The notes below the pieces were generated by a model that worked only from the letters and a program-made list of their open reading frames with translations, was not told where the DNA came from and searched no databases. Shown here piece by piece: positions 2,238-49,111 of a stretch of DNA of 64,000 nucleotides (position 1 is its first letter; every line of letters starts with the position of its first letter). A program made the position numbers and the translations under genes. Origin of the DNA: Bdellovibrionales bacterium CG10_big_fil_rev_8_21_14_0_10_45_34 (lineage in GTDB: Bacteria > Bdellovibrionota > Bdellovibrionia > Bdellovibrionales > 1-14-0-10-45-34); contig PEZS01000011.1 in the NCBI GenBank assembly GCA_002778785.1, positions 1 to 64,000 on the forward strand. Reading direction: 5' to 3'.

Positions 2238-3728
2238 CTAGCTAGAGGTTTGAGCTAGAAACTTATCAACTTCCTTGCGATCTGAAAAATTCAAGCGTTG
2301 AGATCCAATGATTTGATACTCCTCATGGCCCTTGCCCGCGATAAGTAGAGTGTCGCCTTCCGAAAGTCGGTGAAGTGCTTTTGATATAGCCTTTGCTCTA
2401 TCTACTTCATTAAAAATAGGTTTGTCAGTTTTTGGTAGCCCCGATGCAATCTCTTTAATGATCGCATCAGGATCTTCTGTGCGAGGATTATCTGAAGTGA
2501 TCCAAACCTCGTCGGCAAATCTTTCAGCAATTTTTGCCATTATCGGTCTCTTTGATCTATCTCTATCTCCGCCGCAACCAAAAAGCGCTACAAGCTTTGA
2601 GCTCGAACGTTTTAGCTGCGACAAAGAGTTCAGCACCTTCTCAAGCGCATCCGGCGAATGCGCAAAGTCAATAATGGCGTGTGCTCCATTCGGAAGTTCA
2701 ACCGTTTCCATTCGGCCCTTTACGCTGCTAAGACTTCCTAAAACGGATGCCACTTCTTTTGCCGAAAATCCATTTGCGCAAAGACCGGCAAACACAGCCG
2801 CCGCGTTCCAAGCATTAAACGCCCCGGTCAGCGTAGTTTTAATTTGATGACTTCCCCAGGGAGACTCTAGAGAAAATGTGGTTTCACCAATTCGGCACCG
2901 CATGTCTTCAATTTGTATCTTTTGACCCGTAAGACGCTCATTGTTGGTACTTCCAACCCAATAGACCTTCTGAGAATTGTCACATTTTACTTTTCTCACC
3001 CATTCGTCATCAGAGTTAAGTATAACGACTCCGCCTTGAACCAAATATTGAGAAATCAGGCGCTCCTTCGCTTCAAAGTAGGTTTGCATGGTTTTGTGAT
3101 AGTCTAAATGATCCAGGGTCAAATTTGTAAAGACCGCTGTGTTCACGAAGACTCCTTCAATTCTCTTCTGAACAAGAGCGTGGCTCGAGGCTTCAAAGGC
3201 CAAATCCGTTGCTCCCAGCTTTTTCATTTGAAAAATTCTGCGGTGAAAATCAATAACCCCAGGAGTGGTGAGCTCTGTTGGCCAACTGTGAGCCTTTAAC
3301 CGGTGCCCAACCGTACCAATGACGCCACAAGATCTTCCCATGTTGTTTAAGGCAGACTCCAAGTAATGAGTGAGAGATGTCTTGCCGTTAGTTCCTGTTA
3401 CAGCCCAGACGGTGAGCGCTTGTCTTGCTTCTTTTGTTGAAAAAAATCGTGAAGCCAATTCTGGCTTTAAAAGGGACGTATTTTTAGTCTGATAAACGGC
3501 TCCGCGAAAACTCCCCAGTTCTATGGGCCAATCTTCTAAAAGAACACAGGCCGCCTGAGAAAGGTCTTTAATAAATTTATGAGAATCAAAACGCTCTCCT
3601 TTTGAGGCGATAAAAAGGGCTCCCTCAGAAACGTTACGTGAGTCATCGGCAATGTCGGTCACTTCGATATCACCATTTCCTTTAACAATCTTTACTGGAA
3701 GATTTTTTAACAGATCGTTCACCAACAC
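2238..3728 (-). CDS. murE: UDP-N-acetylmuramoyl-L-alanyl-D-glutamate--2,6-diaminopimelate ligase MurE
   Basis: MurE adds the third stem-peptide residue to UDP-MurNAc-L-Ala-D-Glu in the cytoplasm. Visible motifs are the P-loop TGTNGKTSLTHY near residue 112, the central motif FEASSHALVQKR, and WITSDNPRTEDPDAII near the C-terminus. The DNPR motif is characteristic of MurE enzymes that add meso-diaminopimelate, pointing to Gram-negative-type peptidoglycan. The 496-aa length is normal. The start is a GTG at 3728, preceded by AGTAGGG at a suitable distance; TTG and GTG codons follow immediately, so a one- or two-codon shift is possible. It lies 135 bp after ftsI. Its last 14 or so codons are partly duplicated at 1612-1625 beyond the HigBA insertion. 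Confidence 0.96.
   Translation of the reverse strand: MLVNDLLKNLPVKIVKGNGDIEVTDIADDSRNVSEGALFIASKGERFDSHKFIKDLSQAACVLLEDWPIELGSFRGAVYQTKNTSLLKPELASRFFSTKEARQALTVWAVTGTNGKTSLTHYLESALNNMGRSCGVIGTVGHRLKAHSWPTELTTPGVIDFHRRIFQMKKLGATDLAFEASSHALVQKRIEGVFVNTAVFTNLTLDHLDYHKTMQTYFEAKERLISQYLVQGGVVILNSDDEWVRKVKCDNSQKVYWVGSTNNERLTGQKIQIEDMRCRIGETTFSLESPWGSHQIKTTLTGAFNAWNAAAVFAGLCANGFSAKEVASVLGSLSSVKGRMETVELPNGAHAIIDFAHSPDALEKVLNSLSQLKRSSSKLVALFGCGGDRDRSKRPIMAKIAERFADEVWITSDNPRTEDPDAIIKEIASGLPKTDKPIFNEVDRAKAISKALHRLSEGDTLLIAGKGHEEYQIIGSQRLNFSDRKEVDKFLAQTSS
2259..2272. repeat. att-like direct repeat, right copy (within murE 3' end)
   Basis: This 14-bp AAACTTATCAACTT lies in the final codons of murE (encoding EVDKFL on the minus strand) and matches 1612-1625 exactly. 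It is the intact copy; the left copy is non-coding. Together they flank the higBA genes. Confidence 0.55.
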
Positions 3729-3863
3729 TTCTAGACCCTACTCCAACCAATCAGTAATTCTAACAGATACCCACTTTAGCCTCTGACTACAAAATACACC
3801 TATTCAGCAAATATGTTAGCCACTATTGCAGAGGATATATTGGCGACTTCAGCAAGAGGCTCT

Positions 3864-5852
3864 TCATTCGAAAAACACTTGAAGCGTCGTATTCCTGGCG
3901 AAACTTTCTCCTGCCGGAGGCGATTGGCTGGTAACCTGGCCGCTTCCGTAAAAATTTACGGATCCACTCAGGCTGCGAACTCTTTCTGCAACCTCGCGAA
4001 GGCTAAGGCCTTTTAAATCGGGAACAACCTCGGCCCCGTCCGAAGTCCTTTTTGATTCTTTTGAAGCAGACCCAACAAGTTGCTCTGCTGAGCCCGCAGT
4101 TCCGGCCTTCAAATGAGCGACTTCGCCTGAGGGCGATGGCTTAATCTGAAAAGCCTCCGATAAAAACTGACTGATCGCTTCGCTTTCAACTTCAACTCGA
4201 GGCACACCAAGCTTTCTCATAGTATAACCAGCGACTTTCGAAAAAAGAGGAGCCGCCGTTTCCGAAGCATAATAGACGCCCTTAGGCGTATCGATTGCTA
4301 CAAAAATGACCGCCTTAGGATTTTGCGCTGGTAAGAAACCAATAAAGCTAGAGATGTAGGCCCCTTTTTCATACCCGCCGTTAATAAGATCTGGCTTTTG
4401 CGCGGTACCCGTTTTACCTGCGACAGGATAGCCTTTTACCTGTGCCGACTTGCCCGTTCCCTCGGCCGACGTCACTCCCAACAACATGTAGGTTAATGCT
4501 AAGGCTTGGCTTTTAGAAAGCACCCGCCGGGAGCGAATTCTCGGTTCGCCGGCGTCTTCTTCGTTTGCAACAAGAAACGGTTCACTAAGCATCCCGCCAT
4601 TTGCAATGGCCGCATACCCATTTGTTATTTGAAGAGCATTCACGGCGACTCCCTGTCCAAAGGAGATGTTGCTTAAACGAATCTTACGCCAAGGAGGGCG
4701 AGAAAGAATTCCACCAACCTCTCCTAAAAACTCTGTCGAACTGGCTTTACCAAAGCCAAAATCTAAGAGCGCACTAAAGAGACGTTCATCTCCAATTCGA
4801 AAGGCCATTTTTGTTGTGCCGATGTTTGATGATTTTTGTATAATCTCATTGACCGTCAACATCTTAAACTTATGCTTTTGATCGGCTTCTCGTATGAAAT
4901 GCTTTCCTATTTGAAACTGACCGTCTTCGCAATCAAACACTGAATTGGGCAATATTTTTTTATCTCTTAGACCGGCCGCAACCGTAAAAATTTTGAAAGT
5001 ACTTCCCGGCTCGAAAATATCGGCTACGACCCGATTCTTTCGTAATTCTGCACTCACACTTTTTGCTGAGTTGAGATCGAAAGAAGGGTAGTTCGCCATA
5101 GCCATGACTCCAGAATTTTCGGGATCCAATATTATGCCGAACGCGCCTTTTGCTTGGTGTCTCATCACAGCGAGTTCCAGTTGGCGCTCCAGATAGTACT
5201 GAAGGTCGCGATCTAAAGTGAGGTTCAAAGAGCGTCCATCATGCCTCTTCGTAAAATCGCTTGCCTCTACAAAGAGCGGTCGTCCTCGAGCGTCCCGCTG
5301 TACAGTCAGATCTCTAGGATCCCCTTTAAGTACCGAGTTAAACTGCTTCTCAACCCCTTCAAGACCTTGTGACTCTGACCCCACAAAGCCAAGCACATGT
5401 GCAGCCAATGGCCCATTTGGGTAAACTCTCTTTGATTCCTCAATAAATCCCACTCCTTGAAGGTTAAGAGCTTCAATCGCCTTCTTTTGTTGTAGAGTGA
5501 GTCTTCGAGCCAGCCAAACAAATCTTTTCTTTTTATTTGCAGTGGCTTTTCGAATCTCTTTTTCTGAGAGCTTAATCAGGGGTGCAATTTTTTTAGCAAA
5601 GGTTTTCTGAGACTCGATCAAGAAGCTATCAGCGAACAAGGAGTGAGCTGGCACTGACACTGCCAACTCCTTTCCGCTACGATCAAAAATGTCTCCACGA
5701 AGTGCCGGAAGCGTGATTTTTGTCTCGTACTGTTTTGTGCTTTGTCGATCTAAGCGAGCGTCGGAGCCAAATTTAATATAGAAGCCTCTTAGCAAAAGGC
5801 CTGCCCAGGCTATAGTGAATGCCAAAAATAAAAGGATTTGTCTTGTTTTCAC
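3864..5852 (-). CDS. ftsI: Peptidoglycan DD-transpeptidase FtsI (PBP3) with C-terminal PASTA domain
   Basis: Class B penicillin-binding protein that cross-links septal peptidoglycan in the periplasm. Order: membrane anchor at residues 5-25, pedestal/dimerisation domain with the LRGDIFDRSG motif near 50-60, transpeptidase domain with serine motif STFK at 284-287, SSN at 341-343 and KTGT at 480-483, then a PASTA domain at about 608-662 (VVPDLKGLSLREVAERV). PASTA domains bind peptidoglycan or muropeptide-like ligands and are commoner in Gram-positive PBPs and Spo/FtsI of some deltaproteobacteria than in E. coli FtsI. All catalytic residues are present. The GTG start at 5852 overlaps the ftsL stop (GTGA), indicating translational coupling. 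Confidence 0.95.
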   Translation of the reverse strand: MKTRQILLFLAFTIAWAGLLLRGFYIKFGSDARLDRQSTKQYETKITLPALRGDIFDRSGKELAVSVPAHSLFADSFLIESQKTFAKKIAPLIKLSEKEIRKATANKKKRFVWLARRLTLQQKKAIEALNLQGVGFIEESKRVYPNGPLAAHVLGFVGSESQGLEGVEKQFNSVLKGDPRDLTVQRDARGRPLFVEASDFTKRHDGRSLNLTLDRDLQYYLERQLELAVMRHQAKGAFGIILDPENSGVMAMANYPSFDLNSAKSVSAELRKNRVVADIFEPGSTFKIFTVAAGLRDKKILPNSVFDCEDGQFQIGKHFIREADQKHKFKMLTVNEIIQKSSNIGTTKMAFRIGDERLFSALLDFGFGKASSTEFLGEVGGILSRPPWRKIRLSNISFGQGVAVNALQITNGYAAIANGGMLSEPFLVANEEDAGEPRIRSRRVLSKSQALALTYMLLGVTSAEGTGKSAQVKGYPVAGKTGTAQKPDLINGGYEKGAYISSFIGFLPAQNPKAVIFVAIDTPKGVYYASETAAPLFSKVAGYTMRKLGVPRVEVESEAISQFLSEAFQIKPSPSGEVAHLKAGTAGSAEQLVGSASKESKRTSDGAEVVPDLKGLSLREVAERVRSLSGSVNFYGSGQVTSQSPPAGESFARNTTLQVFFE

Positions 5853-6163
5853 AAATCGACTTCTGGCCTTTGTGCTCTCATGATCTGAACGGAAAGACTC
5901 CTTCCTTGTATCTTTTCGATAGATTGGTTGAGTCTCTCGATTCTCTCTGGAGCTGCCAAATTCGCGAGCTCAGATTTTTTTTCTCGGTTGGCCTGAAATA
6001 ATAACTTTTCACTTTGGCTGAGTTTCAAAAGTTGGTAACCCATTCGGCGATTTTCAAGCTTCAGAGTTGCAACTAAAAACACCCCTGAAAGACACATTGT
6101 TACCGCCAAGAGCATTGAGCGGGTTTGGTACTTCCCTTGCGATGAATAGGTATTGTCTTTCAT
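5849..6163 (-). CDS. ftsL: Cell division protein FtsL-like
   Basis: A 104-aa bitopic membrane protein with the FtsL layout: a short basic cytoplasmic N-terminus, one membrane span (about residues 16-36, SMLLAVTMCLSGVFLVATL) and a periplasmic heptad-like coiled coil (LLKLSQSEKLLFQANREKK). FtsL bridges FtsQ/FtsB and FtsW/FtsI at the division site. Sequence conservation in this family is low, so the call rests on position between rsmH and ftsI, size and topology. Both ends overlap the neighbouring genes by four bases. Confidence 0.88.
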   Translation of the reverse strand: MKDNTYSSQGKYQTRSMLLAVTMCLSGVFLVATLKLENRRMGYQLLKLSQSEKLLFQANREKKSELANLAAPERIERLNQSIEKIQGRSLSVQIMRAQRPEVDL

Positions 6164-41776: not shown

Positions 41777-41817
41777 CGCTTTGACTAAACGTTCGCCAAC
41801 TTCTATTGTCAAGGTGG

Positions 41818-44124
41818 ATGAATCATCAAAGGCTACGAATCTTTTTGATTGCCGCAGTTTTGACGCTCGCGGTTAGTACAGTTTTAACTTGGCTCTGGTT
41901 AAGCAGCCTCGAAAAACTTATTGAAGAGCGCTTAGAATCCAAAAAGTTTAGCTCAACTGTTGAACTCTTTGCCGCCCCCGGAAGGTTGGTGAGGGGCCAG
42001 TCCATAACCTTGCTGCAAGTAATGACTGACTTAAAACGTCTCGGCTACACGGAACGCAAAGGCATTCAAACGCTTCAAAGCAAAGAGTTCCAGGTGCCCC
42101 CTTCTGATGTTTGCCTCGAAGACCTCCCGGACGGCTCAGAAGCAGAATTTGTCTCTTCCTGCATAGATATTGCTGGTCCAACTGTCGATGAGTCGCAAGC
42201 GCCATTATCCATCTATCGCGTTTATTTTTCTCAGGCGAGTCAGTCAGTGATCTCTATCGAAGACAGGCAAAGCCGCACGGAAGAGCCTTTTTTTGAATTG
42301 GAACCCGAACCCTTTGCCCAATTTGCGCAAGGCCGACCTATTTTGAAAACTTACCGCGAGCTCGGGGAGACTCCTCCGCTTTGCCTCAATGCGATTTTGG
42401 CCATTGAGGATAAAGAATTTTTGGAGCACAAAGGGTTCAACATTACATCTATCGCTAGGGCATTTTTTAAAAACCTCAAAGCGGGAAGGGTTACCCAAGG
42501 CGGAAGCACAATCACCCAACAGCTTGTCAAAAACTACTTTCTAACCCCCGAGAAAAGCTACACGCGAAAGGCCAAAGAGTTCGCCATCGCTATTTTGCTA
42601 GAAACCAGAGAAAGCAAAGACGAGATTCTCGAAAGCTATATCAATGAAATCTACATGGGTCAAAACGGAGCCTTCGAGGTGAGAGGCTTTGGTGCCGCTA
42701 GTGAATTCTATTTTAACAAGGATCTTTCTCGTATTGATCTTGCGGAGTGCGCACTACTAGCAGCAATTATTAATAGCCCCGGTAGGTTCAATCCATTTAA
42801 ACATCCTGAAGATGCGACGGAGCGACGAAACCGGGTTCTTGATCTTATGAAAGAGCTCGGCATGATCCGCGAAGACGAGTGGAAGCTTGCCGTAGAGAAA
42901 ACTTTACCGCAAGAGCGCGTAGCACTTTTAAAGGAGCCGGCTCCTTATTACGTGCAAGCGGTGATGGGGTGGCTCGAAGAAAGAGAGCTCATCAGCGAAG
43001 GGGGAATTCAAGTTTTTACATCGATGAATATTCAGGCCCAACAAGCAGCGCAAGAGGCTGTCGCTAGAGGCATTTCGCAACTCGAAAAGCGAAAGACTAT
43101 TAGCAAGCTAAAAGAAGGCGGCAAAACGCTTGAAGCTAGCTTTGTTGCCTCTGACCCAATTACCGGTGACATCATCGCCCTGGTCGGTGGACGCGACTAC
43201 CGTAAATCACAGTTTAATCGAGCCATCCAAGCGAAACGCCAGGTTGGATCTGTCATGAAACCCATAGTCTACTTGGCAGCCTTGGAGCAATTGGATTCAC
43301 AAGGCAACGTTTATACGCCGATCACACTTATTTCTGATGAAAAATTCACGCTAAAAACAGGACCAAACACATGGTCTCCAAAAAACTATGACGGCAAGGC
43401 TCATGGGCTTATTCCTCTGTTTTATGCCCTTAAAGAATCCCTTAATATTGCGACCGCACGGCTAGGGAATGAAGTCGGACTCGATAACATTCTTTCGCTC
43501 GCGAGGGATTTAGGAGTGACATCGCAACTTCAAGCTCTACCCTCTCTCACCTTAGGAGCGTTTGAAATGACGCCACTAGAAGTGCTGCAAGCATATTCCA
43601 CTCTAGCGAGGCAAGGCAAAAAGGCCGAACTCAGTTTAGTGCGAAAGGTTGTGAGCGACGAAGGTCACATCATATACCGAAGTCCACTGAATCGTGAGCA
43701 AGTTTCCATTCCGCAAAAGGTTGCGGTGATCATCGCGATGTTGAAACAAGTTATAAATTCGGGTACCGGCCAGGTTGTTAAACTTCTTGGTTTCAGCATG
43801 CCAGCTGCAGGAAAAACCGGCACAACAAGCGACTACAAAGACACTTGGTTTGCGGGTTTCACACCATTTGTGACAGCGGTATCTTGGGTTGGGTACGACG
43901 ATAATACTCCGACCGGGCTCTCGGGTGCTAGTGGAGCAGCTCCTATTTGGGCTGACTTTATGAAGCAGTTCGCAGCGCGATATCCGCCAAACGATTTTAA
44001 GTGGCCAGAAGGTACTGAGCTGCGCGAGTTGAGCGTAGAAGACCAATTGAGTCTTGGAATAGTTCCGGGCGAAAATGAAATCTTGAATCCCGTCGAACTT
44101 CTTTTTGAAACCAACCCCTACTAG
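41818..44124 (+). CDS. Class A penicillin-binding protein (PBP1B-like glycosyltransferase/transpeptidase)
   Basis: Bifunctional enzyme that polymerises and cross-links peptidoglycan, anchored in the inner membrane (span at about residues 5-25). A UB2H-like segment follows (FAAPGRLVRGQSITLLQV), then the GT51 domain with the catalytic glutamate in AIEDKEFLEHKGFN and GGSTITQQLVKNYFL, and the transpeptidase domain with SxxK in GSVMKPIVYL, SxN in KESLNIA and KTGTT. The UB2H-like domain suggests the PBP1B branch, which binds an outer-membrane activator (LpoB) in E. coli. ATG at 41818 taken as start; a TTG four codons earlier is possible. 768 aa. Confidence 0.94.
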   Translation: MNHQRLRIFLIAAVLTLAVSTVLTWLWLSSLEKLIEERLESKKFSSTVELFAAPGRLVRGQSITLLQVMTDLKRLGYTERKGIQTLQSKEFQVPPSDVCLEDLPDGSEAEFVSSCIDIAGPTVDESQAPLSIYRVYFSQASQSVISIEDRQSRTEEPFFELEPEPFAQFAQGRPILKTYRELGETPPLCLNAILAIEDKEFLEHKGFNITSIARAFFKNLKAGRVTQGGSTITQQLVKNYFLTPEKSYTRKAKEFAIAILLETRESKDEILESYINEIYMGQNGAFEVRGFGAASEFYFNKDLSRIDLAECALLAAIINSPGRFNPFKHPEDATERRNRVLDLMKELGMIREDEWKLAVEKTLPQERVALLKEPAPYYVQAVMGWLEERELISEGGIQVFTSMNIQAQQAAQEAVARGISQLEKRKTISKLKEGGKTLEASFVASDPITGDIIALVGGRDYRKSQFNRAIQAKRQVGSVMKPIVYLAALEQLDSQGNVYTPITLISDEKFTLKTGPNTWSPKNYDGKAHGLIPLFYALKESLNIATARLGNEVGLDNILSLARDLGVTSQLQALPSLTLGAFEMTPLEVLQAYSTLARQGKKAELSLVRKVVSDEGHIIYRSPLNREQVSIPQKVAVIIAMLKQVINSGTGQVVKLLGFSMPAAGKTGTTSDYKDTWFAGFTPFVTAVSWVGYDDNTPTGLSGASGAAPIWADFMKQFAARYPPNDFKWPEGTELRELSVEDQLSLGIVPGENEILNPVELLFETNPY

Positions 44125-44128
44125 TACC

Positions 44129-45253
44129 TCAAGAAAAGATACTTTTTTTAATTTCTGATGCAATGGCCTTAGAGACTGGTAGTCCGGCAATTACTTCGCT
44201 AAAGTGCCACGCACCTGGTCGATTCATTTCTAAAAAATAGTAAACACCGCTCGACGTTTTCAACAAATCGAAACAGGCATACTGCAGGCCTCGCACTTTT
44301 AAAAAATCTCGCAAGGCTCTTCGCACTTTTGCAGGAAGCTCTAGTGGCTCCATCTTTAAATTTTCTAACGGATGAGTTCTCCAGTCTCTGAACGAATTTG
44401 ATTTCGGATTCACGATAGAAATTTTGTGACCGTAGACTTTATTCCCGCAAGCGACGCATCTGATATCTTGGGCATTCTTGATATGTTGCTGCAAAAATAC
44501 AGGGCCCAGTTCCACCGCTTTTTGAAGCCCCCTCAGGTTCTTTACGAGCTTTGGCGAAAAAACCTTAACACCTTCTTTGGTGTGTCTTGCGCGAAAACCC
44601 ATTTCTTTTATTAAGGCCTCTCCACCAAAATCATGTAGGTAGTTTTCCAGCGAAGCAAGATCTCTTGTACGCACAGACTTGGGTGTTTTTAGCCCCAGCT
44701 TTTTTGATAAACGTAAATCTGCGATCTTCTCTTGTGCTTCATCTCCGAGCAGCGAAGGCCTCGCCGGAAACCATGTGATTGCGGCTAACTGGCGCTCTAT
44801 GGAGCGAAGAATAATTTGCCACTTTTTTAAAAACTGCCATTCAACATACGTCAGGTCGCTGTCTTCTTGAAGCACGTCCATAAAACCTGGCCGCCTATAA
44901 AAAACAGCCTTAAATGCTTCGAGTGGGATTTTCTTCGAGCCGAGTAAAATCGATAGGCTCTGACTAGCAGTTTCAAAAATGTCTGATTCAAAAATAAAAT
45001 TATCTAAGTTGATCGCTACAAAAGGAACATCTAACTCTACTAAGTCACGAATAACTAAAGCAGTTTCTGGATCATCACTGCCAAGTACGAGCAAATGGGA
45101 TTTGCTGCGATTTGGACTCCATCGGTGAATCCACCCCTGACGACCCTCCAGCATGGAATGTGAATCCGCCCGCAATGCACCTGATGCTTTCTTGGCTTTT
45201 CCTATTCTATGCGATTTTTGCGCTGTCGATTTCTTGGATGTTGGCTTGGGCAT
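44129..45253 (-). CDS. ATP-grasp ligase, MvdC/MvdD (graspetide synthetase)-like
   Basis: 374 aa. After a basic N-terminal tail, the sequence follows the MvdC/MvdD type: LLVLGSDDPETALVIRDLVE, then VFYRRPGFMDVLQ, and an ATP-grasp core (EALIKEMGFRARHTKEG, VFLQQHIKNAQDIRCVAC) with the metal-binding end YYFLEMNRPGAWHFSEV and GLPVSKAI. Those ligases form ester or amide side-chain links in ribosomal peptides (microviridins and other graspetides). A short peptide gene of 44 codons lies about 150 bp upstream on the other strand. The NxxGQW-type end is altered to NRPGAW. Another member of the ATP-grasp superfamily (e.g. a glutamate ligase) cannot be excluded. Confidence 0.82.
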   Translation of the reverse strand: MPKPTSKKSTAQKSHRIGKAKKASGALRADSHSMLEGRQGWIHRWSPNRSKSHLLVLGSDDPETALVIRDLVELDVPFVAINLDNFIFESDIFETASQSLSILLGSKKIPLEAFKAVFYRRPGFMDVLQEDSDLTYVEWQFLKKWQIILRSIERQLAAITWFPARPSLLGDEAQEKIADLRLSKKLGLKTPKSVRTRDLASLENYLHDFGGEALIKEMGFRARHTKEGVKVFSPKLVKNLRGLQKAVELGPVFLQQHIKNAQDIRCVACGNKVYGHKISIVNPKSNSFRDWRTHPLENLKMEPLELPAKVRRALRDFLKVRGLQYACFDLLKTSSGVYYFLEMNRPGAWHFSEVIAGLPVSKAIASEIKKSIFS

Positions 45254-45403
45254 TCAGTGATCATATACTCCCAAACTGATCCTCGCACTCAATTTGGCTA
45301 AGTTTTTGCAGGTAATAGATTAATCCGGGCCATTTGAGGGCCTATTGACACCACCTCGATAGGTGAAGTGAAGAGAACAGCGTGCAATTGCGGAGGTAAA
45401 TAC

Positions 45404-45538
45404 GTGAAGACAAATAGAAAGCTAAATGGCCTTAGAAAAAAAATTAAGACAGTGAAAAGCCAGTCTGTCGTTTTGAGCCCAGTTCCAAGAAATGGCTATG
45501 CTGCCGGGGTCATTCTGACCAACCCAGCTTCGGACTAG
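45404..45538 (+). CDS. 44-aa peptide (leader or precursor candidate)
   Basis: GTG at 45404 with a strong GGAGG seven bases upstream, to TAG at 45536-45538. The product begins with a lysine-rich segment (MKTNRKLNGLRKKIKTVKSQ) and continues SVVLSPVPRNGYAAGVIL, ending TNPASD. No signal peptide or family recognised. It lies between the divergent ATP-grasp gene and the CHASE2 kinase gene, 36 nt ahead of the terminator-like hairpin. Two readings fit: a precursor peptide modified by the ATP-grasp ligase, or a leader peptide of the kinase operon. The core lacks the repeated TxxE-type motif of known graspetides. Confidence 0.55.
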   Translation: MKTNRKLNGLRKKIKTVKSQSVVLSPVPRNGYAAGVILTNPASD

Positions 45539-45574
45539 CGAAAGATTTACTCTAGTAAATCGATAAAACACTGG

Positions 45575-45642
45575 AAATCCACGGGAGCCTTGAGGTAAAT
45601 AAAACCTCCAAACAACGAGGCAATACCCGTGGATTTTTTTTT
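45575..45642 (+). terminator. Intrinsic-terminator-like hairpin overlapping the kinase start codon
   Basis: A perfect 11-bp stem pairs AAATCCACGGG (45575-45585) with CCCGTGGATTT (45626-45636), followed by a run of nine T (45634-45642). The GTG start codon of the kinase (45629-45631) lies inside the 3' arm. The 40-nt loop contains an inner GAGGT/ACCTC hairpin (45592-45596 with 45604-45608); the same CCTC could instead pair with the Shine-Dalgarno GAGG at 45617-45620. The element can therefore exist in competing folds that switch transcription termination and ribosome access. Confidence 0.8.
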
Positions 45643-47458
45643 AAGCCGCAGAAAAATCATTTCAACTCTCTTAAAAGTCGCTTTCTGCCTTGGTTTAGCT
45701 GGCCTACTCCTTCAGTTTGACTTCCACTCCATTGAATTTCTCACCTACGACATGCGGGTTCGAACAAGCCCAGCCCCGAGGCTTTCTGATCAGTTGACTC
45801 TCGTCCAAGTCGATCGCGACACGGTTAGAGGCTTGGACCGAAGCCCATCGCCCCTTGATTTACTCACTCTTCTCGAAAATATTTTGCTCGCCCAACCGCG
45901 CGAAATTCTCATATTTCTTTCTGTTCCCGGTCTTCAAGGGACATTTCAAGAGCAAACCAGGCTTGCGCAGTTCTTGCGTGAACATCCCAATATCTTCTTT
46001 ATGGAGGAGGACCTCTTTCTTCCTGGACAAGAAGACCGATTAAATATGTCGCCACCATTCGGTGGTCTCAAAAAAACCTCGGCCCCCATCACAATGGACA
46101 AATACAGTTTTTCAGCAGACGGCGTCACACGAAGGGTGATGTTGAGCTATTTGGGAGAGCCACTCTTTTACGCAAGGTGGGCTAGGCTGATGAATGGCTA
46201 TGAACCGGGCTATCAATTTCGTGGAACGTTTTATTACAAGGAATCTACGCAAGCACTTATTAGATATCACCCTAAGGGATCCTTCAAAACCCTCTCTTTC
46301 TTAGATACGTTAGGTGGTCGATTTAAAGCGGATGATTTTTATACAAAGACCGTTCTTATTGGAGTCGATACCGAGGCAAACACCGAGGATTACATTCAGA
46401 CTCCTTATTCGAGAGACGTAACGGCAATGTCACACCTTGAAGCTCAAGCAAATATGATGGAGACCTTGATAAAAGATCAGGGCATAGCGAAAGTTCCAGA
46501 ATGGTTAAAGTGGTTGATCACTATTTGTGTCTCCTTGGCAACTGGCTATGTTGTATTCTCACTTTCTCCGCTCACAGGTCTGGCTTACCTTGTTAGCCTT
46601 GTACTCACATATTGCGTAGCTTCGTGGGCTTTTTTTGCGGGCTTTGGAGTGTGGATTCCCATGGCTCATCCTTTGCTGGCAGTTGCCATCTGTTACTACT
46701 TTTTTATTCCTTACAGACTGATTAAGGAAAATCAAAAATCCTGGGAGTTTGAACAGAAAAACCGGCTTCTGACCCAAGTGGAGGAGCTCAAAAGTAACTT
46801 TTTGGGCATGATGTCGCATGACTTAAAAACTCCTCTAGCCAGAATTCAGGGACTTGCCGAAGTAGTGCTTACTGAATCAAAATCTTTAGATACGAAACAT
46901 CGCTCCTTGTTAAAGCAGATAGGTCAATCTACAGAGGAGCTCACCCGTTTTATCTCATCGATATTGAGTCTTAACCGGATCGAGAGTAAGGAGCTTAAGC
47001 TCAACCTGCAAAGTAAGGACATCAATGAAATTGTGGGTGAAGTTATTGAGCGGCACCAATTCTTAGCGCAGACGAAAAATATCACGTTTGAGACCTCATT
47101 TGATCCTCTGTTCAGCGTAAAGGTAGATCCAGAACTTATACGACAGGTTGTTAGCAACCTCGTTGAAAATGCTATCAAGTATGGCCCAGAAGACTCAGTG
47201 GTAAGCGTGAAAACCCACGAAGTGAGTGATCAAGTTCTTATTGAAATTTCAGACGAAGGATCTGGAATCCCTCAGCCAGAGCTAGAAAATGTGTTTATGA
47301 AATTCTATCGTAGCCGTGATGCCAAAAGTTCACCAATCAAGGGCACCGGTCTTGGCCTTTATCTTGCTAAATATTTCGTTGAGTTACACCAGGGCCGAAT
47401 ATCGGTGTCAAATCTACCCCAAAAGGGCTGTATTTTTAAGGTGGAGCTCCCGCTTTAG
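45629..47458 (+). CDS. CHASE2-domain sensor histidine kinase
   Basis: 609 aa. First a membrane span (about 8-30), then a periplasmic CHASE2 domain (FLTYDMRVRTSPAPR to about 285) and three spans near 290-365. A HisKA dimerisation helix holds the phosphoryl-accepting His-397 (MMSHDLKTPLARIQG), and the HATPase domain shows NLVENAIKYGPED (N box), DEGSGIP (G1) and GTGLGLYLAK (G2). CHASE2 sensors detect an unknown extracellular signal. Start GTG 45629, with GAGG at eight bases; it lies within the upstream hairpin's 3' arm. The NtrC-type regulator starts 78 bp downstream and is almost certainly its partner. Confidence 0.93.
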   Translation: MDFFLSRRKIISTLLKVAFCLGLAGLLLQFDFHSIEFLTYDMRVRTSPAPRLSDQLTLVQVDRDTVRGLDRSPSPLDLLTLLENILLAQPREILIFLSVPGLQGTFQEQTRLAQFLREHPNIFFMEEDLFLPGQEDRLNMSPPFGGLKKTSAPITMDKYSFSADGVTRRVMLSYLGEPLFYARWARLMNGYEPGYQFRGTFYYKESTQALIRYHPKGSFKTLSFLDTLGGRFKADDFYTKTVLIGVDTEANTEDYIQTPYSRDVTAMSHLEAQANMMETLIKDQGIAKVPEWLKWLITICVSLATGYVVFSLSPLTGLAYLVSLVLTYCVASWAFFAGFGVWIPMAHPLLAVAICYYFFIPYRLIKENQKSWEFEQKNRLLTQVEELKSNFLGMMSHDLKTPLARIQGLAEVVLTESKSLDTKHRSLLKQIGQSTEELTRFISSILSLNRIESKELKLNLQSKDINEIVGEVIERHQFLAQTKNITFETSFDPLFSVKVDPELIRQVVSNLVENAIKYGPEDSVVSVKTHEVSDQVLIEISDEGSGIPQPELENVFMKFYRSRDAKSSPIKGTGLGLYLAKYFVELHQGRISVSNLPQKGCIFKVELPL

Positions 47459-47536
47459 TAATTGAATTGTAATATTTACCATTGTGAAAGGCCTTTAAGT
47501 ATGGGAGCTATGTACGGATTACAGGAAGGTGAAAAC

Positions 47537-49111
47537 ATGCTGCGTGTGCTCGTTGTTGACGATGATGCGGGCTTACGACTATCAGTAGCTTCAGCGCTCA
47601 ACCATACTCGTCGGTTTCACGTAGAAGAAGCGATCGATGGTCTCGATGCCGTTGCTCAGGTTAAGCGGGGCCAGTTTGATCTCGTCATCCTCGATGTCGA
47701 TATGCCAAACTTAAGCGGGCTCGAAGCTCTTCGAGCCATTAAAGAGCACGATCCTCGCATAATTGTGATTATGCTAACAGCATTTGCAAAGATCGATGAC
47801 GCCGTCTCCGCCGTCAAAGAAGGAGCATTTCATTATCTCTCGAAGCCTATAAAAACAGACGAATTGGTTCAGTTGGTGGATCGGGCGTTAAATGCACATG
47901 CGCTCATTAACAGTGCGGCCGGTTCTTCACCAATACTTATTGAAGCTGGAACAAAATTCATCGGTAACTGCAATGAAATGCAAAAAGTGTTCACCATCAT
48001 CGACCGTCTCTCAAAGGTAGACACAGCGGTGATGATTCGCGGGGAGTCCGGTACCGGTAAAGAACTCGTCGCCAGAGCTATCCACTACAATTCAGTTCGT
48101 AAAGATCAAAAATTTGTAGCTATAAACTGTTCAGCCATTCCGGAAACGCTCTTCGAAAGTGAACTTTTTGGCCACGAAAAAGGAGCATTCACCGGAGCTG
48201 ATTCGCGCAAGATTGGAAAGTTTCAATTTGCAGAAGGCGGAACGCTCTTTCTAGATGAGCTTGGCGACATGCCCTTGTTAATGCAGGCAAAGCTTTTACG
48301 TGTTCTACAGGACAAGAGGTTTACGCCTGTTGGATCGAACCGAGAACTTGAGGCCAACGTTCGAATCATTGCTGCCACGAATCGTCCCTTAGAGAAAATG
48401 ATCGAAAAAGGAGAGTTTCGAGAAGATTTGTTTTATCGTCTCAATGTTATCCCGATTTTCCTTCCGTCTTTGAGGGATAGAAAGAACGATATTGAAAATC
48501 TCGTTCAAAACTTTATCCGCAAATTTAACCTTCAACATCAAAAGAAAATTGTCAGCGTGGCACCCGAGGCGATGACTTGCCTGAAGCGCTACGAATGGCC
48601 CGGCAATATTCGCGAACTTGAAAACATTGTTGAGTATGCCTTTATTTGGGAGACTACAAATCAAATTCACCTTTCGTCGCTACCGGAAAAGGTCTTGAAG
48701 GCAAACGGCATTGATCTTTATTCTCTTCAAGAAAGAATGACGCTCACAAACGGCTTAAAGGCGAGCGAAGAGGCTTTGAAAAACACCTCTGCGTCCGGGG
48801 CTTTTTTAAACGCTGAAGGCCAGGGTTTGCCATCTGTGGGTAGTGATGGTGAAAGTCTTGCCGAGGGAAGCGACAACGTTGCAGACACCGATGCGTCGTA
48901 CCAGTTCTTAAGAGGAGAGACTCTTGGGTCTTCTGAGCTAGACTTCAATAGGCAGAAGGAACTTTTCGAAAAAGAGTTTATCATTAAAGCTCTCAAGACG
49001 TTTAAAGGCCGCATCAACCAAACGGCCATTCACGCGAATATCCCAAAGAAAACTCTTCTAAGAAAAATCGAGAAGTACGGGATAGTGGCGAAGGACTACA
49101 TACAAGGCTAA
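47537..49111 (+). CDS. NtrC-family sigma-54-dependent response regulator
   Basis: 524 aa: receiver domain (1-115) with phosphorylation site Asp-53 (VILDVDMP), and conserved LTAFAK and SKPIK; AAA+ domain with Walker A RGESGTGKELVAR, the sigma-54 contact loop HEKGAFTGAD, Walker B GGTLFLDELGDMP; and a Fis-type helix-turn-helix (KTFKGRINQTAIHANIPKKTLLRKI). It should activate sigma-54 promoters on signal from the CHASE2 kinase upstream. An unusual Ser/Gly/Asp-rich linker of about 80 residues separates the AAA+ and HTH domains. ATG 47537 selected because GGAAGGTG lies upstream and the receiver domain begins there. Confidence 0.95.
   Translation: MLRVLVVDDDAGLRLSVASALNHTRRFHVEEAIDGLDAVAQVKRGQFDLVILDVDMPNLSGLEALRAIKEHDPRIIVIMLTAFAKIDDAVSAVKEGAFHYLSKPIKTDELVQLVDRALNAHALINSAAGSSPILIEAGTKFIGNCNEMQKVFTIIDRLSKVDTAVMIRGESGTGKELVARAIHYNSVRKDQKFVAINCSAIPETLFESELFGHEKGAFTGADSRKIGKFQFAEGGTLFLDELGDMPLLMQAKLLRVLQDKRFTPVGSNRELEANVRIIAATNRPLEKMIEKGEFREDLFYRLNVIPIFLPSLRDRKNDIENLVQNFIRKFNLQHQKKIVSVAPEAMTCLKRYEWPGNIRELENIVEYAFIWETTNQIHLSSLPEKVLKANGIDLYSLQERMTLTNGLKASEEALKNTSASGAFLNAEGQGLPSVGSDGESLAEGSDNVADTDASYQFLRGETLGSSELDFNRQKELFEKEFIIKALKTFKGRINQTAIHANIPKKTLLRKIEKYGIVAKDYIQG

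Follow-up and report, generated by a model that had tools for sequence, protein, structure and literature searches.

In nisA/nisB-type lantibiotic operons, an attenuating hairpin lies behind the RiPP precursor gene and the downstream genes are expressed by read-through. The locus described here shares the strong hairpin directly 3' of a putative precursor gene and, as we propose, the expression of downstream genes by read-through, but the downstream gene here is a sensor kinase and the stem contains its start codon. Two-component systems of the NtrC type that have sigma54 promoters share with this locus a GAFTGA activator encoded beside a kinase and promoters of the GG-N10-GC form. However, the sensor here is a CHASE2 protein, and the sigma54 transcript would start with a RiPP precursor or maturase gene. 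Graspetides (omega-ester-containing peptides; ligases MdnC/MdnB, CdnC, PsnB, and PruB) resemble the present system in ligase sequence and predicted fold, in the short precursor beside the ligase, and in the Ser/Thr and Asp/Glu residues near the peptide C terminus. The ligase of this locus, however, is only ~20% identical to them and falls under the curated family cut-offs, the putative precursor is very small, rich in Lys, and devoid of any known core repeat, and the unit is followed by a CHASE2 kinase and an NtrC-type regulator. PapB/nif11-type radical-SAM maturases with ranthipeptide-like precursors that have a C-terminal Cys stand at the corresponding place in 28 orthologous loci, but had no match in the genome studied here in one homology search, run without a positive control. 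The single-Cys C-terminal core (GEGCIPVR, GGGCIPVSG) of these precursors is unlike the repeated Cys motifs known from ranthipeptides. A survey of graspetides described some ATP-grasp loci with histidine-kinase-like ATPases and OmpR-type regulators close by (PMC8939145); when its main text was searched for the terms CHASE, sigma-54, and Bdellovibrio, none of them occurred. No description of a peptide/maturase-kinase-regulator module was found in the freely accessible literature searched.

The window, which is the whole 64,000-nucleotide stretch of DNA analysed, contains a strong hairpin between a small peptide gene and a sensor kinase gene. We read this hairpin, with a probability of roughly 0.7, as a terminator or attenuator that follows a sigma54-activated graspetide-like RiPP precursor gene and passes little kinase mRNA. 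The features of the locus are listed below.

44129..45253, minus strand: ATP-grasp ligase of the graspetide macrocyclase kind, 374 residues, divergent from the peptide gene (profiles, sequence, and predicted fold)
45295..45310, plus strand: putative sigma54 -24/-12 promoter TGGCTAAGTTTTTGCA (GG-N10-GC), score 19/21; predicted transcription start ~45321
45392..45397, plus strand: Shine-Dalgarno GGAGGT of the peptide gene (sequence)
45404..45538, plus strand: 44-codon peptide gene with GTG start and TAG stop, MKTNRKLNGLRKKIKTVKSQSVVLSPVPRNGYAAGVILTNPASD; candidate graspetide-type RiPP precursor
45544..45561, plus strand: small A+T-rich hairpin GATTTACTCTAGTAAATC, located before the terminator
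45573..45642, plus strand: intrinsic terminator/attenuator hairpin with U tract (predicted fold); its 3' arm carries the kinase start codon
45617..45620, plus strand: Shine-Dalgarno GAGG of the kinase gene, base-paired in the predicted fold; 8 nt spacing to the start
45629..47458, plus strand: CHASE2-HisKA-HATPase sensor histidine kinase with GTG start (PF05226, PF00512, PF02518)
47462..49111, plus strand: NtrC-type sigma54-activating response regulator (receiver, AAA with GAFTGA, Fis-type HTH)

The 11-bp stem of the hairpin has no mismatch (AAATCCACGGG at 45575-45585 with CCCGTGGATTT at 45626-45636), and the predicted stem extends to 13 bp once two G-U pairs are counted. The T run at 45634-45642 comprises nine T, the first three of which lie within the 11-bp stem. 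The coordinates in the first-pass annotation of this DNA were correct, and the stem, the nine-T run, the GTG at 45629, the 44-codon ORF at 45404-45538, and its GGAGGT were all confirmed. Folding of 45539-45640 gave -34.9 kcal/mol (z -7.2), which none of 200 shuffles equalled, and the hairpin ranked first in stability among the 118 terminator-like hairpins on both strands of the 64-kb window. The element thus has the sequence character of an intrinsic terminator, that is, a G+C-rich stem followed immediately by a U-rich tract, with a stability far beyond chance. The earlier proposal of a short transcript with a small gene and a terminator hairpin at its end is in this respect borne out by sequence and predicted fold. 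CCTC at 45605-45608 had also been proposed to choose between two GAGG segments (45592-45595 and 45617-45620). In the best fold, however, GAGGU at 45592-45596 pairs with ACCUC and, concurrently, GAGGC at 45617-45621 pairs with GCCUU at 45587-45591, so that both GAGG segments are paired together in one nested structure. A search for a hairpin repeat family in the same genome returned chance matches only. The hairpin is of a familiar kind, and the reading that suits it best is a common transcription terminator or attenuator rather than a new riboswitch.

The GTG start codon of the kinase (45629-45631) sits in the 3' arm of the stem. It is the sole ATG, GTG, or TTG in the kinase frame ahead of the first membrane helix and agrees with the start positions of the orthologs. 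The first-pass annotation had placed this codon and the kinase Shine-Dalgarno sequence within the structure, and fold prediction concurs: both are paired with a probability above 0.96 in the predicted sigma54 transcript and in any transcript with the complete stem. Any transcript that reaches the kinase start from a promoter further upstream has to run through the terminator, and its start codon for the kinase then lies within the stem. Among the loci compared, the overlap of start codon and stem was seen in the window genome alone, and it may be a packing accident. The kinase frame relies on the nine-T run just past the start codon; slippage or an assembly error in 45634-45642 would uncouple the kinase from its only start codon.

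The sigma54-type site upstream of the peptide gene (TGGC-N8-TTGC) has a score that was unreached in 200 dinucleotide shuffles, and sites of this type are conserved in the orthologs. Of 45 orthologous loci, 29 had a site scoring at least 18 ahead of their first gene, versus 108 of 4796 control windows (2.3%); these windows, like the controls for the peptide unit described below, were drawn from the same loci and hence contain some true sigma54 sites. By locus type, such sites were found in all four peptide-type loci, 19 of 26 radical-SAM-type loci, and 6 of 15 kinase-only loci, where they mostly lay ~66-70 nt ahead of the kinase. Since sigma54-type sites precede the operons, the neighboring regulator carries GAFTGA, and rpoN is present in the window genome, the kinase-regulator pair is likely to be autoregulated. 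In five loci of family f4 (L042, L043, L050, L078, and L081), a perfect dyad, GTGTCA-N3-TGACAC, precedes the sigma54 site by 40-130 nt and may be a binding site of the NtrC-type regulator. Dyads of this kind also precede kinases without a sigma54 site (L064 and L072). Neither this dyad nor another shared activator site was found in the window.

The kinase and its NtrC-type regulator are kept as a pair through most of the order, and full-length kinase orthologs were found in most of 59 of its genomes. The regulator orthologs are 58-69% identical and lie directly 3' of the kinase in almost all orthologous loci; the true start of the regulator in the window may be an ATG near 47537. One of two unrelated peptide-modifying systems precedes the kinase in 32 of 47 loci, namely a PapB/nif11-type radical-SAM/SPASM maturase in 28 and an ATP-grasp ligase in 4. 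All 24 peptides encoded between maturase and kinase (a set from which near-copies were excluded) combine a C-terminal Cys with a leader motif resembling IKK. The leader resembles (H/F)IKK(V/I)KP, and the Cys mostly occurs as Cys-x-Pro, with C-terminal examples such as TGEGCIPVR, PGGGCIPVSG, and CVPLST. One such peptide is encoded at 5861-5977 in kinase orientation in locus L053, and further orthologous loci have peptides at equivalent positions. Judged by its anatomy, the combination of radical-SAM maturase and peptides is a RiPP cassette. In most of these loci the gap before the kinase is just 8-40 nt and holds no terminator. Mapping the two labels onto the kinase tree takes a minimum of two changes for ATP-grasp and of three for radical-SAM, which implies gain, loss, or exchange of the cassettes. 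A shared ancestry of the window peptide and the radical-SAM precursors was considered and rejected, as their alignment scores were no better than those of shuffles. A relative of the kinase was also found on an Oligoflexia MAG contig, with no RiPP cassette there; this contig and the character of the genomes suggest that the order is Bdellovibrio-like.

In the window, the protein encoded divergently from the peptide gene matched the NCBIfam profiles TIGR04187, TIGR04185, and TIGR04184, all below the curated cut-offs (for TIGR04187, E 9e-37 and 126.9 bits against a cut-off of 350). Its sequence matches in the PDB were MdnC (E 1e-20), AMdnB, MdnB, PruB, and CdnC, and the best 30 solved folds for its model (mean pLDDT 70.9) were all MdnC, AMdnB, PruB, CdnC, MdnB, or PsnB. 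The protein also carries the C-terminal E-x-N motif, within an invariant FLEMNRPG. Predicted fold and motif thus agree with those of a graspetide ligase, at scores below the cut-offs of the named subfamilies matched. Relatives of this protein (E <1e-15) occurred in 5 of 141 genomes of the order, and the same 5 were the ones found among 369 genomes of the phylum. No convincing sigma54 site was found ahead of the ATP-grasp gene, and no exporter or peptidase was seen among the adjoining genes. The peptide itself has 44 residues and is basic and Lys-rich, with Ser/Thr and Asp/Glu close to the C terminus, and has no paralogs in its own genome. The core pattern (S/T)x4(D/E) is present in 4/4 peptides of this type, with a joint shuffle probability of 6e-4 before allowing for the ~10 spacings tried, a modest significance that makes it weak evidence for a graspetide core.

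The small ORF might instead encode a short regulator or leader peptide with no relation to the ATP-grasp enzyme. This would fit the absence of any Pfam or NCBIfam profile match for the peptide and its lack of similarity to the radical-SAM precursors. It would also fit the arrangement in genome G004, where the ligase gene lies on a different contig from the peptide, adjoining a penicillin-binding-protein gene, so that the linkage of ligase and peptide is not absolute. However, the ligase and the peptide unit co-occur exactly: a sigma54 site, a Shine-Dalgarno sequence, and a small basic ORF precede the kinase in 4/4 testable ATP-grasp genomes (those with an assembled kinase upstream region; the contig of the fifth ends there) and in 0/43 other loci. 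In three genomes the ATP-grasp gene is divergently adjacent to the peptide gene, and a clear RiPP cassette occupies the same position in the 28 radical-SAM loci. An ORF unrelated to the ligase is on this evidence distinctly unlikely, and we suggest from its sequence and setting that the 44-codon ORF is probably a graspetide-type RiPP precursor. The hairpin behind it admits other functions, one of which is suggested by the remaining ATP-grasp loci. The gap between peptide and kinase holds a stable hairpin without a U tract in L047 (z -3.6), a stable one with a short U tract in L080 (z -3.2), and no stable hairpin in L069. The presence of stable hairpins in two of these three loci speaks for the main reading. 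Their lack of a full U tract, together with L069, indicates that termination at this position is not conserved, and the window hairpin could act in mRNA 3' stability instead of termination. Its chief role would then be to guard the 3' end of the peptide mRNA as a processing or exonuclease barrier, with the start overlap as a by-product of compact packing and the kinase served by another, weak promoter, for which the sites shortly ahead of the kinase in kinase-only loci show that an own sigma54 site is possible. However, the U tract of the window hairpin is canonical, no other terminator-like hairpin in the 64 kb is as strong, no above-threshold sigma70 match lies between peptide and kinase, and a promoter located there would transcribe the stem anyway. 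We consider such a mainly protective role rather unlikely and prefer termination or attenuation.

The first-pass annotation had gone further and seen in the element a two-state regulatory RNA, controlled by a ligand, a protein, or the ribosome, that toggles between an open form and one that terminates transcription and occludes the start. The appeal of this idea is that the start codon and ribosome site lie wholly within the structure, so that melting would lift read-through and initiation alike. The folding results argue otherwise. Banning the terminator stem costs ~25 kcal/mol over the whole leader, with no rival fold within this range; a fold in which CCUC is forced onto the second GAGG comes out ~5 kcal/mol worse and retains the terminator; and fold analysis of the leader yielded no antiterminator. 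An Rfam search of the element gave no match, whether judged by the gathering score or with the E limit raised to 1. No comparable terminator with the kinase start in its stem was found in the other peptide-gene loci. The orthologs, which are distant relatives, keep the coding sequence and not the start codon in a stem, a pattern that the annotation itself had named as speaking against its proposal. Coupling to translation of the peptide, which had been offered as one means of control, is unlikely because the peptide stop lies 36 nt before the stem and a ribosome there would not cover the stem; this suggestion also overlooked the probable nature of the peptide as a RiPP precursor. A two-state RNA is therefore very improbable, and the hairpin is better regarded as a terminator or attenuator.

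With the hairpin as terminator or attenuator, the locus would operate as follows. The NtrC-type regulator encoded downstream probably activates the putative sigma54 promoter at 45295-45310, which would give a short mRNA of ~320 nt that encodes the 44-residue basic peptide and ends at ~45642. This peptide is probably crosslinked, by graspetide chemistry, by the ligase encoded divergently from it. Those RNA polymerases that read through would yield the kinase-regulator mRNA, in which the kinase start and ribosome site would be paired in the same hairpin, favoring low kinase and bulk peptide. The hairpin could thus serve as a two-level brake, keeping the peptide abundant and the kinase and regulator scarce.

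The modified peptide may in turn be a signal or an output of the two-component system. In a tentative extension to the whole order, which we hold to be possible and less probable than its negation, the kinase would sense a RiPP made from its own sigma54 operon, and the maturing chemistry would have been swapped between lineages (radical-SAM, ATP-grasp, or none). The terminator in the window would then set the gain of a positive loop, throttling kinase synthesis twice, once at termination and once at initiation. Should the peptide be the signal of the kinase, this would be a peptide-communication system with exchangeable chemistry, spread through an order to which the predatory Bdellovibrio group probably belongs. 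The hairpin has in any case led to a conserved two-component system with peptide-modifying systems in front of it, which are probably sigma54-driven by that same pair.

Further genes were seen around these loci. A penicillin-binding protein (transglycosylase/transpeptidase) gene at 41806-44124 of the window adjoins the ATP-grasp gene, as one also does in L069, L093, and L094, and such genes lie near the kinase in many other loci. In L080 (genome G004), a second CHASE2-type protein of 753 aa, ~25% identical to the kinase, is encoded at ~2815-5076 in kinase orientation, and its gene is divergent from the small peptide gene.
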